Origin: Pseudobacteriovorax antillogorgiicola
GTDB taxonomy: Bacteria; Bdellovibrionota_B; Oligoflexia; Oligoflexales; Oligoflexaceae
DNA length: 64,000 nucleotides
Direction: 5' to 3'
NCBI RefSeq assembly: GCF_900177345.1
Contig: NZ_FWZT01000009.1
Location: 1 to 64,000 of the forward strand
Notes under the pieces: generated by a model
Told to the model about the DNA's origin: nothing
Database searches by the model: none
Seen by the model: only the letters and a program-made list of their open reading frames with translations
Made by a program: the position numbers and the translations under genes
Part shown: in pieces, positions 46,276 through 51,780 of the stretch
Layout of the letters: each line of letters begins with the position of its first letter
Position numbering within the stretch: the stretch's first letter is position 1

Positions 46276-47988
46276 ATGTCGGTTTTTAACACCCGCCGTG
46301 ATTTTTTTAAGCTTTCAGCCCTGGGATTCGGTGCCGCCGTTTTCGCATCAGGGATCTCTGCTTGCGATGATGTTTTGGATGACGGAATCCGATTTAAGGA
46401 TGGGGTTGCTAGTGGCGACCCACTTGCCGATCGTGTCATTCTCTGGACTCGCGTAACTCCTGATGATCCTGCAACGGCCGAAGCCTATACGGTTGCTTTT
46501 GAAGTGGCTACTGATCAAAACTTTCAGAATATTGTTGTAGCTGGTGTTTTCGATACCAATAGAGATCGTGATTATACTGTTAAAGTTGATGTCGGTGGGC
46601 TATCACCAGCGACAAGTTACTTTTATCGATTCCGAAGTAGCGATACCTTGTCTCCCGCTGGACGAACTAAAACCCTTCCAGTTGGCAGTGTGAGCCAGGT
46701 GAAACTTGCAGCAGTATCTTGTAGTAACTATCCTGCTGGACGATTCTATGTGTATCGTGAACTTGCAAAACAGGATGATCTAGATGCCATCTTGCATCTC
46801 GGTGACTATATCTACGAGTACCAACGAGGTGGCTACGCTTCTGAGAATGCACCTGAACTAGGGAGAGAGTCACAGCCTGAGCTTGAGCTGCTAAAGTTAG
46901 ACGATTATCGCCAACGTTACCAGCAATATCGCAGTGATCGGGATCTCCAGGCGGTGCATCAAGCTCATCCCTTCATCGTTGTTTGGGATGATCATGAAGT
47001 TGCCAACGATGCCTGGCGAAACGGTGCAGAAAATCATCAAGAGGACGAAGGCGAGTTCTCAGTTCGAAAGCTGGCGGCCCTACAAGCCTATGCTGAGTGG
47101 ATGCCGATTCGTCCTGCATCAGCAGAAGATAACGAGACGATCTACCGCTCCTTCGCGTTTGGTAACCTTGTCGACCTTCATATGCTTGATACCCGCATCA
47201 TCGGTCGTGATGAGCCCCTGGAATATGGAAACTTTGTGGGAGAGGAAGGCTTAGACTTTGCTGCAGCACTACAAGCGATCGCAGATCCTGAGCGAACCCT
47301 TCTCGGTGCTGAGCAACGGGATTGGTTGCTGGGCAAGTTAAAGCGTAACAAGGCGACCTGGCAGGTATTAGGGCAGCAAGTCCTCATGGGGCGGATGTAT
47401 CTACCTGGAGCGGTAGCAACCCAGCAGATCAGCATTGCTGACTTTGCGCGACTAGCGACCCTAGCCCAACGAGCTGCTGCTGGAGACACTCTTACCGCAG
47501 AGGAGCTAAAGTTTCTGCAAGACAATCAGGCCTTGCTTGCGATTCCCAGACTTCCTTACAACCTTGATGCTTGGGATGCCTTTGATGCCGAGCGGCAACT
47601 GATCTTGAATACAGCAAAAGAGTCAGGCGCTAACCTTATCGTTCTTGCAGGTGACACCCATAATGCTTGGGCAAATCAGCTGAAGAGTCTAGAGGGTGAC
47701 CTATGCGGCATGGAGTTTGCGACCTCTTCTGTGACGTCACCTGGCTTGGAGTCTTATCTAGGAATTCCAGATGCAGCCATTCCTCAAACAGAAGCCCAAT
47801 TGGTAGCATTGGTTGAAGGACTACAATATTGCAACAGCAAGGATCGAGGCTTTCTAACACTTACCTTTAGCCCGGAAAAGGTGAGTGCTCGCTTTAGCTT
47901 TGTCAGTTCTATCTTGGATAGCGACTACACCTTATTGAGCGATAGAGAGTTTGTTACTGATTTAGATGCAGTCGGTTCTAAGAGCTAG
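46276..47988 (+). CDS. phoD: Tat-exported PhoD alkaline phosphatase
   Basis: A 570-residue phosphatase/phosphodiesterase. The N-terminus carries a twin-arginine signal (NTRRDFFKLSALGFGAAVFA) ending at GISAC. An N-terminal Ig-like domain is followed by the PhoD catalytic domain: AVSCSNYPAG, LHLGDYIYEYQ, VWDDHEVANDAW, LDTRIIGR and LAGDTHNAW provide the metal ligands. PhoD enzymes use iron and calcium and release phosphate from mono- and diesters. AAGGAG lies eight bases before the ATG. Its stop is three bases from the convergent gene's stop. Confidence 0.95.
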   Translation: MSVFNTRRDFFKLSALGFGAAVFASGISACDDVLDDGIRFKDGVASGDPLADRVILWTRVTPDDPATAEAYTVAFEVATDQNFQNIVVAGVFDTNRDRDYTVKVDVGGLSPATSYFYRFRSSDTLSPAGRTKTLPVGSVSQVKLAAVSCSNYPAGRFYVYRELAKQDDLDAILHLGDYIYEYQRGGYASENAPELGRESQPELELLKLDDYRQRYQQYRSDRDLQAVHQAHPFIVVWDDHEVANDAWRNGAENHQEDEGEFSVRKLAALQAYAEWMPIRPASAEDNETIYRSFAFGNLVDLHMLDTRIIGRDEPLEYGNFVGEEGLDFAAALQAIADPERTLLGAEQRDWLLGKLKRNKATWQVLGQQVLMGRMYLPGAVATQQISIADFARLATLAQRAAAGDTLTAEELKFLQDNQALLAIPRLPYNLDAWDAFDAERQLILNTAKESGANLIVLAGDTHNAWANQLKSLEGDLCGMEFATSSVTSPGLESYLGIPDAAIPQTEAQLVALVEGLQYCNSKDRGFLTLTFSPEKVSARFSFVSSILDSDYTLLSDREFVTDLDAVGSKS

Positions 47989-47990
47989 AT

Positions 47991-49460
47991 CTAGGCTAGA
48001 CCTTGATTGCCGTCGTCCTCGTTGAGGTTCCCGTTGCGGGGGCGACGACGATCTTGCATGGGCTGCTGGAGCGACTCTTGCTCTAGGCGCTGCTTTTCCG
48101 CCTGATTGAGAATCGCTACCAACTGATCTGCCACGGCACGCTTGAATAAAAATTCAAAGTGGGCGTAGCGATGCATAGGGATAAGCTTGACATTGCTAGG
48201 GTGATGAAAGACTCCTGCAGTGCCGGTAGCAACTCCATCGCGATCCGAATAAATATTGTATATAGTTAGCTTGTCTTGTGGTGGACTTTCATGAAGCTCT
48301 CTTAAGAACCTTGAACCTGGCCGCATCTGCCAAACGTCTTTCCAGAAAAACCCTAGTGGGGTAAACAGAGCGAGATAGGTGAGGCGACTGCCTTTAAATG
48401 GAGTACCCATAGTGATCACATGATCGCAGTACTTGTGCCCTCCCATACGTAGAATCCACCATAATGCAACTAAACCGCCTTTTGAGTGACTGACGATATA
48501 TATCTTATTAAAGCCGTGGCGCTGAATCTGGCGCCGAATCTTACGATCGATGAAATCGGCTGTTTCTTCGATTCCACGGGTGAAAAAGGTACCTAAAACA
48601 CCGCCAAGATTGAAGGTCATCACCTGGTAGCCGCGAACATTCATCAGGCGCTCCATGACTCCAAGGGTTCGCCGCGATGAAAAGAAGCCGTAAAGAATTA
48701 TCACCGGTGGCTTTTGATTGGTGAATACCTGCTTTTTCTTGATCTCGTTGTTGACTTGAACTTCATAGAAAACTTCATAATAGACCCGCTTTAACTGATG
48801 CCAAAGACTAGTTCCTCGCCGTCGGTATACATATTCATAGCCAAGAAGAGGCAGCGAGGTGATCAAACTAAAAGCGAGGATTTGCAAAAAGCCATTGCCG
48901 ATAGCTTGGTTGCTTGGGCTGGCTAGATTGCTGAACAACCATACTTCGGGAATGATTCCGAGAAAAGAGAACATCACCAAGCGACTGGCGTGGAAGTTTG
49001 CAGCGCCAAATAAAAAGGACATGAGGTCGAAAGGGAATAACGGTACCCAGCGGGTGATAAATATAAGCTTGAAATCCTGAGACCTTATGAGACTCCAGGT
49101 GCTAGGAAGATTGGTCATTAGCCAAGGCCGAACTAGCTTCTTGCCGAGGTAATATCCAGGCAGGTAAAAAACAAGAGCTGATAGCGCGGTGGCAGCAGCA
49201 GTGAGCAGGGTTGCTAGTAGCGGCCCAAAATTGCTGCCCCCAATCATCGCTGGCACCATAATCGGGGTAAAAAAGAATGGTCGTAACAAGGCCAGGATCA
49301 GAAACCTATGAGGTGAATAGTTTTGATCGCCCATACAGCCTCGCATCGACCCGTCACAGGTAATCGATATAAAGCTAGTCCCTAAGACGATCATCAAGGT
49401 GATGACGATAACTTCGATCACCAATACTGTCTTAAATTGTCGACCAGTTATTTTCGGCAT
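47991..49460 (-). CDS. VTT (DedA/TVP38-like) membrane domain fused to an alpha/beta hydrolase
   Basis: A 489-residue fusion. Residues about 50-215 form a VTT/SNARE-associated membrane domain with the family motif near 137-153 (RWVPLFPFDLMSFLFGA). From about 250 on, a lipase-type hydrolase follows: PPVIILYGFFSSRR, nucleophile Ser326 in IVSHSKGGL, a likely Asp in IYSDRDGVA and His in MHRYAHFEF. VTT proteins include lipid scramblases; the hydrolase part resembles lipases or PGAP1-like acyl-hydrolases. The fusion implies membrane-lipid remodelling. Start MPKITG has a weak ribosome site. Confidence 0.82.
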   Translation of the reverse strand: MPKITGRQFKTVLVIEVIVITLMIVLGTSFISITCDGSMRGCMGDQNYSPHRFLILALLRPFFFTPIMVPAMIGGSNFGPLLATLLTAAATALSALVFYLPGYYLGKKLVRPWLMTNLPSTWSLIRSQDFKLIFITRWVPLFPFDLMSFLFGAANFHASRLVMFSFLGIIPEVWLFSNLASPSNQAIGNGFLQILAFSLITSLPLLGYEYVYRRRGTSLWHQLKRVYYEVFYEVQVNNEIKKKQVFTNQKPPVIILYGFFSSRRTLGVMERLMNVRGYQVMTFNLGGVLGTFFTRGIEETADFIDRKIRRQIQRHGFNKIYIVSHSKGGLVALWWILRMGGHKYCDHVITMGTPFKGSRLTYLALFTPLGFFWKDVWQMRPGSRFLRELHESPPQDKLTIYNIYSDRDGVATGTAGVFHHPSNVKLIPMHRYAHFEFLFKRAVADQLVAILNQAEKQRLEQESLQQPMQDRRRPRNGNLNEDDGNQGLA

Positions 49461-49753: not shown

Positions 49754-50005
49754 ATGTTGAAATTCTTGTTGCCGGTACTAATGGGATTGTTTTCTGTGTC
49801 GTGTATATCCACACCTGAAGAGGTCATCTACGAATATGAAGGTGAAGAATCTTTCAGCGAGGAAGATTTGGATAAAAAACTTCAGCTTGATATTGCCTCG
49901 TGCAATCAGGCAGGCTTACAAACACGGGATGATCTCTTATTGCAAGAGAAAAATCATCAGCGATGTATGTATCAGCTGGGTTGGAAGGCGAAGTACTTGT
50001 TTTAG
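49754..50005 (+). CDS. Small lipoprotein of unknown function
   Basis: An 83-residue lipoprotein (lipid Cys17, FSVSC). The mature part is acidic at first (YEYEGEESFSEEDLD), then has two cysteines (IASCNQAG, HQRCMYQLGW) that could form a disulfide. GGAG lies seven bases before the ATG. The preceding 49461-49753 gap shows no gene. It is convergent with aspS. Family not recognised. Confidence 0.72.
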   Translation: MLKFLLPVLMGLFSVSCISTPEEVIYEYEGEESFSEEDLDKKLQLDIASCNQAGLQTRDDLLLQEKNHQRCMYQLGWKAKYLF

Positions 50006-50025: not shown

Positions 50026-51780
50026 TTAATCTGGCTTTTTAAACTTGATTTGAAGCTCCTCAAGCTGATCTGGAGAGGCTTCTGCTGGTGATCCATCAAG
50101 AGGGAAGATACCCTGGTTGTTACAGGGGTAGGCTATCACTTCACGAATGCTATCTTCGCCACAGAGAAGCGCGACGAGCCGATCAAACCCCACTGCACTA
50201 CCACCATGGGGAGGTGCTCCGTATTTGAAAGCATTCATCAAAAAGCCAAACTTGCCTTCGGACTCCTCGCGAGGCATCTCAACGATATCTAAAACCTTCT
50301 GCTGCAGTTCTGGAGTATTAATCCGGATACTGCCAGACAACAGCTCGACACCATTCAGCACCAAGTCATAGAGTTTTCCGCGCACCTTACTAGGGTCGCT
50401 GTCGAGGTATTGCATGTCTTCGTCTTTGGGGTGAGTGAATAGGTGGTGCATCGCGATCCACTTTCCGCTCTCATCATCCTGCTCAAAAAGTGGGAAATCA
50501 TTCACCCAAAGGAACTTATACTCACTATGATCGATGAGATCGAGCTTCTTACCCAACTCCAACCGAACTGCAGAAAGAGCTGCACAAGCGACCTTATAGC
50601 TATCCGCAACGAACAGGATGAGAGTACCTTCCTTGACATCGTCTAGGCTCATCAAAGTATCTTTGAGCGGGGCTAAAAATTTCCCTACACCACCAGATAA
50701 TTCGCCGTCTTTAACTCTTGTCCAAGCGAGGCCTTTAGCGCCATAAATCTTCGCCTTATCAAGCAAGGTTGTGTCGATATCCTTGCGCGACACCTGGGAG
50801 CCTTCTTCAATGACGATGCAGCGAACGGATTCAGCTTCAGCGAAAACTTTGAAGTCAGTTTGCTTGGCTTGCTCCGTGATGGTCTTTAGCTCCATTGCAA
50901 AGCGCATATCAGGCTTATCGTTCCCAAAGCGCTCCATAGCTTCGGCATAAGGCATGGCTAGGAACTTATCCTCCAGCTCGACACCTTTTACGTCTTTAAA
51001 GATTCGTTTCATCATGGTTTCAACGGCATGATGCACATCTTCCTGATCGACAAAGCTCATCTCCATATCGATCTGGGTGTGGACAGGCACGCGATCTGCC
51101 CGCAAGTCTTCGTCCCTAAAAGCCGGAGCAAACTGAAAATAGCGATCCATACCTGAGATCATTAGCATCTGCTTGTAGAGTTGAGGGCTCTGTGGCAAGG
51201 CATAGAACTTTCCTGGGTGTAGCCGTGAAGGCACCACGAAGTCTCTGGCGCCCTCAGGTGTGGAGCGGATCAGCAAAGGAGTTTCAATTTCTAAGAAGCC
51301 CATCTCGCAGAGAGCATCCCGAGCTGCTTGCAAAGTCTTGTGTCGGGTTTGCATATTTTTCTGCATCCGCGACCGCCGTAGGTCAAGGTAGCGATATTTG
51401 AGCCGCAAGTCGTCTGAGACGTTGATATCGTCGCGAACCTGCACGGGGAGCACTTCCGAGGTATTGAGGACTTTGACTGTCTCAATGACAATTTCTACAG
51501 CTCCAGTTGAGAGTTCACTGTTGATATCCTTAGCGTTGCGCTTTCGCACTGCACCAGTGACTTGGACGCAGTATTCGTTAGCCAAACTTTTTAGCGAGGA
51601 CATGGTGGAATCATTGCTGTCCGAGCTTTCGTAGACGCACTGTGTCAAGCCGTAACGGTCGCGCAGATTCAGAAAGAATAGCTGACCTAAATCTCTGACG
51701 CGGTCAACCCAGCCTGCCAATGTAACCGTTTTATTAACATCTTGTTCGGTCAGCTGACCTGCCGTGTGAGTGCGTAGCAT
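50026..51780 (-). CDS. aspS: Aspartyl-tRNA synthetase
   Basis: Class II synthetase of 584 residues that charges tRNA-Asp. An OB-fold anticodon-binding domain (about 1-110: TVTLAGWVDRVRDLGQLFFL) is followed by the catalytic core: FLEIETPLLIRSTPEGARDF, FYALPQSPQLYKQ (motif 1-2 region), FRDEDLRADRVPVHTQIDMEMSF (motif 2 and Asp-binding), an inserted bacterial GAD-type domain, and GSAVGFDRLVALLCG (motif 3). This is the bacterial type. GGAG lies upstream of the ATG. Whether it is discriminating or not cannot be decided by eye. Confidence 0.97.
   Translation of the reverse strand: MLRTHTAGQLTEQDVNKTVTLAGWVDRVRDLGQLFFLNLRDRYGLTQCVYESSDSNDSTMSSLKSLANEYCVQVTGAVRKRNAKDINSELSTGAVEIVIETVKVLNTSEVLPVQVRDDINVSDDLRLKYRYLDLRRSRMQKNMQTRHKTLQAARDALCEMGFLEIETPLLIRSTPEGARDFVVPSRLHPGKFYALPQSPQLYKQMLMISGMDRYFQFAPAFRDEDLRADRVPVHTQIDMEMSFVDQEDVHHAVETMMKRIFKDVKGVELEDKFLAMPYAEAMERFGNDKPDMRFAMELKTITEQAKQTDFKVFAEAESVRCIVIEEGSQVSRKDIDTTLLDKAKIYGAKGLAWTRVKDGELSGGVGKFLAPLKDTLMSLDDVKEGTLILFVADSYKVACAALSAVRLELGKKLDLIDHSEYKFLWVNDFPLFEQDDESGKWIAMHHLFTHPKDEDMQYLDSDPSKVRGKLYDLVLNGVELLSGSIRINTPELQQKVLDIVEMPREESEGKFGFLMNAFKYGAPPHGGSAVGFDRLVALLCGEDSIREVIAYPCNNQGIFPLDGSPAEASPDQLEELQIKFKKPD

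Follow-up and report, generated by a model that had tools for sequence, protein, structure and literature searches.

Pseudobacteriovorax antillogorgiicola encoded, on a single polypeptide of 489 amino acids, a VTT/DedA-type membrane domain and a lipase-fold serine hydrolase with an invariant Ser-Asp-His triad. Of the 43 genomes sampled from its order, its own included, 40 encoded the same two-domain protein. By its named relatives the order is Oligoflexales, as Pseudobacteriovorax and Oligoflexus assemblies, both Oligoflexales in the NCBI taxonomy, were among the carriers. Retention of the pair in nearly every sampled member suggests that the halves work as one lipid-handling unit. We tentatively propose an inner-membrane protein whose putative activity couples lipid translocation to lipid hydrolysis, a reading that has a reasonable chance of being correct. 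Positions below refer to the window, the whole stretch of 64,000 nucleotides that was analyzed.

Gene and protein organization

The fusion gene lay on the minus strand, with its ATG at 49460 and a TAG ending at 47991, and the frame had no internal stop. Both domains exceeded their Pfam cut-offs: VTT_dom (PF09335) matched residues 66-177 with 50.5 bits (cut-off 33.9) and Abhydrolase_1 (PF00561) matched residues 251-372 with 30.5 bits (cut-off 25.8). The fusion that the original prediction had placed at 47991-49460 was thus real, its coordinates exact and its 489-residue frame open throughout. The features of the gene and protein were as follows.

47991..49460, minus strand: whole gene, VTT/DedA–alpha/beta-hydrolase fusion of 489 aa (open frame and 40-member family)
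49359..49445, minus strand: residues 6-34, first membrane helix (mean hydrophobicity of the 40 members; AlphaFold2 model)
49335..49358, minus strand: loop predicted to be periplasmic, C35 and C42 being invariant (40/40 members; side predicted from charge)
49227..49313, minus strand: residues 50-78, first of two re-entrant-like regions with a broken helix, R60 and P66 being invariant (model break at 58-68; alignment with E. coli DedA proteins)
48930..49265, minus strand: VTT domain, residues 66-177 (PF09335 match)
49002..49106, minus strand: residues 119-153, second region with a broken helix; its RWVPLFPFD...G includes the invariant R137, D145 and G152 (alignment and model)
48822..48902, minus strand: residues 187-213, membrane helix that closes the VTT half (hydrophobicity and model)
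48744..48806, minus strand: linker helix, residues 219-239, following a basic stretch and predicted to be cytosolic (charge and model)
48087..48713, minus strand: alpha/beta-hydrolase domain with lipase fold, residues 250-458 (Pfam; PDB match 5h6b)
48474..48491, minus strand: nucleophile elbow SHSKGG, residues 324-329, nucleophile S326 (S326, K327 and G328 in 40/40)
48237..48239, minus strand: D408, predicted catalytic acid of the triad (40/40 fused members, 30/30 aligned stand-alone domains)
48159..48161, minus strand: H434, predicted catalytic histidine (40/40 fused members, 29/30 stand-alone domains, the other, L102, having a gap)

A PhoD-like phosphatase gene (46276-47988, plus strand) was arranged tail to tail with the fusion gene, the two stops lying two bases apart, and aspS (50026-51780) was upstream on the same strand as the fusion gene. 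Between aspS and the fusion gene, an 83-aa frame on the plus strand (49754-50005) had a lipoprotein-like start (LFSVSC) and no Pfam match.

Distribution and origin of the fusion

The other 39 homologues were full-length, each in one open frame, with 32-65% identity to the window protein (alignment A1), and both Pfam models matched all 40 members at E 0.001. An artefact of sequencing or annotation, which the original prediction had named as grounds for abandoning the fusion, was thereby ruled out, and frame read-through was rejected likewise, as each of the 40 genomes carried the fusion as a single open frame. Three Oligoflexales genomes had no fusion gene. In one (G023) the EF-P gene was also without a match at E 1e-10, so the assembly may lack this region; in G005 (72% complete) and G015 the EF-P region was present and the fusion gene absent.

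Outside the order, the fusion was absent from all 15 other genomes of its class. Nor was it found in 325 sampled genomes outside the phylum (E 1e-15; at most four candidates scored per genome), where matches at this threshold covered the VTT half alone or the hydrolase half alone and none covered both. Among 72,556 plasmid records, none held 80% of the fusion protein, and in the surroundings of matches to a stand-alone hydrolase or to VTT (16 stretches) there was no split pair with the stand-alone hydrolase beside a VTT gene. In a tree of hydrolase domains, a branch with full support separated the 40 fused domains from the others, of which the stand-alone hydrolases L095, L096 and L097 were their nearest neighbors (SH-aLRT 87 for the join). 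As the fused domains formed a single clade, the fusion would fit one origin followed by descent, and the sequence comparison did not contradict a single origin. The fused protein was one of several VTT proteins in its own genome, which had seven VTT-domain matches, six of them above the cut-off.

The VTT half resembles putative phospholipid scramblases

Residues C35, C42, R60, P66, R137, D145 and G152 were invariant in all 40 members. Among E. coli proteins, a profile built from the VTT halves of the fused members scored highest against YdjX (58.1 bits) and YdjZ (56.5), followed by DedA (25.7), YqjA (19.2), YghB (7.0) and YqaA (6.7). Both the proximity to YdjX and YdjZ and, in the alignment, a first re-entrant helix without acidic residues are features of COG0398. 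In the second re-entrant helix one of two basic residues, the second, was absent. Alignment with YghB, YqjA and DedA showed that the COG0586 hallmark, a Glu or Asp in the first re-entrant helix and two Arg in the second, was lacking. Undecaprenyl-phosphate flipping has been tied to these acidic residues and to the missing second basic residue, and the COG0398 group, which has neither, has been argued, from reasoning and not from an assay, to scramble phospholipids like its eukaryotic relatives (PMC10127716, in part). By these sequence features, the VTT half resembles the COG0398 type, the putative phospholipid-scramblase subfamily. Models of mean pLDDT 86-87 had membrane-length helices and helix breaks at 58-68 and 138-144; among solved structures the VTT half had no sequence match and no fold match at E 0.001, the best being VIA (Z 5.2).

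These residues bear on whether the protein serves a polyprenyl-phosphate carrier, with the VTT half as an undecaprenyl-phosphate flippase and the hydrolase trimming a lipid-linked precursor. COG0586 VTT/DedA proteins are held to flip such carriers, a PAP2 phosphatase being part of the polypeptide in some of them (PMC10127716, in part), and an NlpC/P60-like gene was a neighbor in 12 of 21 stretches around the fused gene. Against this, the VTT half scored as COG0398, its re-entrant helices were without the acidic residues (first helix) and the second basic residue (second helix), and a serine hydrolase does not dephosphorylate. We regard a carrier-related role as highly improbable.

Alternatively, the VTT half might be a mere membrane anchor and dimerizer, leaving an ordinary inner-leaflet esterase or lipase and no lipid moved. 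As the nearest stand-alone hydrolases have no VTT partner, nor an adjacent VTT gene in the stretches examined, the hydrolase fold does not need VTT, and other relatives carry a PilZ domain instead. Yet a single helix would suffice as an anchor, which needs no invariant polar residues, whereas R60, R137 and D145 were conserved in 40/40 members and R137 aligns with an Arg needed in YqjA/YghB-type proteins (PMC10127716, in part). An anchor is in our view unlikely.

Triad and lipase fold of the hydrolase

The original prediction depended on conservation of the SHSKGG nucleophile, and this was borne out: S326, K327 and G328 were invariant in all 40 members, as were D408 and H434, and only the first letter of the motif varied (A in 34, S in 3, G in 3). 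S326, D408 and H434 aligned with the triad of 7x2p, and the Ser-Asp-His triad was intact. Among 30 rows of stand-alone hydrolase domains from elsewhere (L109 contributing one row and L112 two), Ser and Asp were present in 30/30 and His in 29/30, the exception being a gap. The Lys after the nucleophile was found among these 30 only in L095, L096 and L097.

The AlphaFold2 model of the fusion protein (mean pLDDT 86.3, pTM 0.78) aligned over residues 241-457 with a Streptomyces lipase, 5h6b (Z 22.8, rmsd 2.8, 211 residues aligned). Further lipase-type matches were MAJ1 (Z 22.1), BlEst2 (21.6) and the phospholipase PlaB (20.5), and lower in the ranking came the thioesterase PPT2 (1pja, Z 19.1) and PhaZ7 (about 19). 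The best solved relative by sequence was 7x2p (E 1e-20), deposited as a 'putative lipase', for which a literature search found no paper. MAJ1, BlEst2, 5h6b, PlaB and 7x2p share the lipase fold with the fusion protein, and none of them is fused to VTT. The modeled hydrolase half is thus of lipase fold, with lipid-ester cleavage as its putative activity; the fold does not fix the substrate, since it is common to esterases, thioesterases and PHB depolymerases.

The hydrolase might be a thioesterase or protein deacylase, similar to palmitoyl-thioesterases, or act on another acyl compound, with the VTT half moving that lipid or product. Two of the nearest stand-alone relatives, L095 and L096, matched Palm_thioest (PF02089) with 38.1 and 40.1 bits (cut-off 26.8), and PPT2 was among the structure matches. 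However, PF02089 was not one of the ten families matched by any of the 40 fused members at E 0.001 and lipases ranked above PPT2 in the structure comparison, and we consider such a substrate quite unlikely. As a separate observation, two very long proteins (L116:1554-6017 and L115:3548-7000) each had three tandem lipase-like domains.

Topology and proposed mechanism

Averaged over the family, basic residues clustered at 1-10, 101-131 and 211-245 and the cysteine-pair loop was acidic, a distribution that by the positive-inside rule would put the hydrolase in the cytosol and the cysteine pair in the periplasm. The three nearest stand-alone hydrolases had no hydrophobic leader (best 15-residue mean 0.28-0.43, versus 2.9 for TM1). 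From the charge distribution together with these leaderless relatives, we infer that the hydrolase sits in the cytosol. C35 and C42 are a possible disulfide. An amphipathic character of the linker helix was also considered and dropped: residues 219-237 of the window protein fell short of significance, with 0.084 of shuffles scoring as high, and linker amphipathicity was in the top 5% of shuffles in only 7 of 40 members.

We postulate that the COG0398-type VTT domain would let a lipid, either a glycerophospholipid or a lysophospholipid, change leaflets in the cytoplasmic membrane, while the short linker would hold the C-terminal serine hydrolase at the cytosolic face. There the hydrolase might deacylate the lipid on its arrival in the inner leaflet. 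Deacylation would pull the net flow of lipid inward, and the products, a fatty acid and a more polar remnant, could be recycled in the cytosol. The suggestion that emerging lipids could be cut by a linked hydrolase agrees with this anatomy, to which the predicted topology would add a side, the cytosolic face. A stronger version of this proposal, possible though more tentative, is that the protein is the first described covalent scramblase-phospholipase, in which VTT passes membrane lipid straight to the active site of a cytosolic lipase for one-way retrieval and cutting of outer-leaflet phospholipids, fixed by descent in one order.

As the cargo of bacterial COG0398 VTT proteins, phospholipids have been proposed without an assay (PMC10127716, in part). 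That a whole order has kept its VTT domain on one chain with a lipid-hydrolase fold suggests that the cargo is a lipid. The hydrolase could report which lipid reaches the inner leaflet, and point mutants could separate the two steps.

Comparison with known systems

With COG0398 VTT/DedA proteins (E. coli YdjX and YdjZ, and the eukaryotic TMEM41B/VMP1 relatives), the fusion protein shares the VTT domain, the second re-entrant motif RL-P-FP and the acid-free first re-entrant helix. The C-terminal hydrolase, invariant R60 and the C35/C42 pair set it apart from the aligned E. coli proteins. VTT fusions on record include PAP2 and rhodanese (COG0586) and pyridine-nucleotide oxidoreductase (COG0398), and a hydrolase of the present kind is not named among the fusions in the part of PMC10127716 consulted. 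The fusion protein resembles these in joining VTT and an enzyme on one polypeptide, and PAP2 and phospholipase D families also act on phospholipids; it differs in that the partner is a lipase-fold serine hydrolase at the C terminus. The PAP2 domain (PF01569) was absent from the protein and its family.

Other fusions turned up among the sampled genomes. A 746-aa protein (L107:218-2458) had two PLDc stretches and a C-terminal VTT, its phospholipase D part thus being N-terminal in contrast to the hydrolase here; a literature search for a fusion of phospholipase D and VTT found nothing. A VTT-pyridine-nucleotide oxidoreductase occurred in the same class (L052), and a 548-aa protein (L106:3828-5474) had iron-sulfur/cysteine-rich (CCG) domains fused to VTT. 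Together with a PilZ-hydrolase fusion described below, these indicate that VTT has fused with several enzymes and that this hydrolase, too, has had several partners. The searched literature held no description of a VTT fusion with a lipase-like hydrolase, in agreement with the original prediction, which knew of no described enzyme of this architecture. What stood of that proposal was a conserved polypeptide combining a scramblase-type (COG0398-like) VTT domain and a hydrolase of lipase fold whose triad is intact; fusion of VTT to an enzyme is in itself nothing new. As far as sequence comparison goes, the kind of fusion was already known and the new element appears to be the lipase-fold serine hydrolase as partner.

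LplT-Aas combines an MFS transporter with acyltransferase and acyl-ACP synthetase domains, none of which had a Pfam match in the fusion protein. LplT flips lysophospholipid inward and Aas acylates it at the cytosolic surface, the pair being fused in some bacteria (PMC11416262, in part). The likeness is one of layout only, with a lipid enzyme placed at the cytosolic face and attached to a flipper in the membrane; the folds are unrelated, and whereas Aas acylates, the present hydrolase would be expected to deacylate. MprF likewise unites a lipid enzyme and a lipid scramblase in one bifunctional protein, though its synthase and scramblase are from other families and it works outward, in defense (PMC11980842, in part).

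Gene neighborhood and link to PilZ

We compared 21 stretches, the window and those of 20 relatives. Recurrent neighbors were efp (15 stretches), accC (13), the NlpC/P60-like gene (12) and accB (11), mostly divergent from the fused gene, and a PLP-dependent decarboxylase family was nearby in 7 of 21. In many relatives the fused gene was divergent to efp-accB-accC (acetyl-CoA carboxylase), a weak link between the fusion and lipid metabolism; in the genome of the window the acc genes were not beside it. That genome carried PilZ-like, NlpC/P60-like and EF-P genes together on contig 2 (L136) without the fused gene, with 55 bases separating the PilZ-like and NlpC/P60-like genes. By this synteny the fused gene seems to have been relocated beside aspS and then kept. 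In G001, a methyltransferase gene occupied the old site and the fused gene was elsewhere.

In 6 of the stretches from the 20 relatives (L062-L066 and L079), the fused gene was followed directly by a PilZ-like gene in the same orientation; of the four scanned with Pfam, L066 and L079 were above the PilZ cut-off, L064 was below it and L062 was unrecognized. Such a PilZ (cyclic-di-GMP) partner might gate lipid release by the hydrolase, making the fusion part of a signaling unit. Beside the downstream genes, a PilZ-hydrolase fusion within the same hydrolase family (L100) favors this; against it, no PilZ gene lay beside the window's own fusion gene, and the PilZ-like homologue of that genome is at the old site on another contig and unrecognized by Pfam. 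We hold signaling to be improbable, and continue to prefer coupled lipid translocation and hydrolysis. The PilZ-hydrolase protein itself (L100:5536-6612) had an N-terminal PilZ domain, above the Pfam cut-off, fused to a relative of the hydrolase, and PilZ was weak in L101 and L102. With the PilZ-like gene following the VTT fusion in several Oligoflexales, the link of PilZ to this hydrolase family is a repeated one. The NlpC/P60-like protein (L064:7035-7886 and L136:4139-4867) looked secreted and had a Cys-rich stretch just before its presumed catalytic cysteine.
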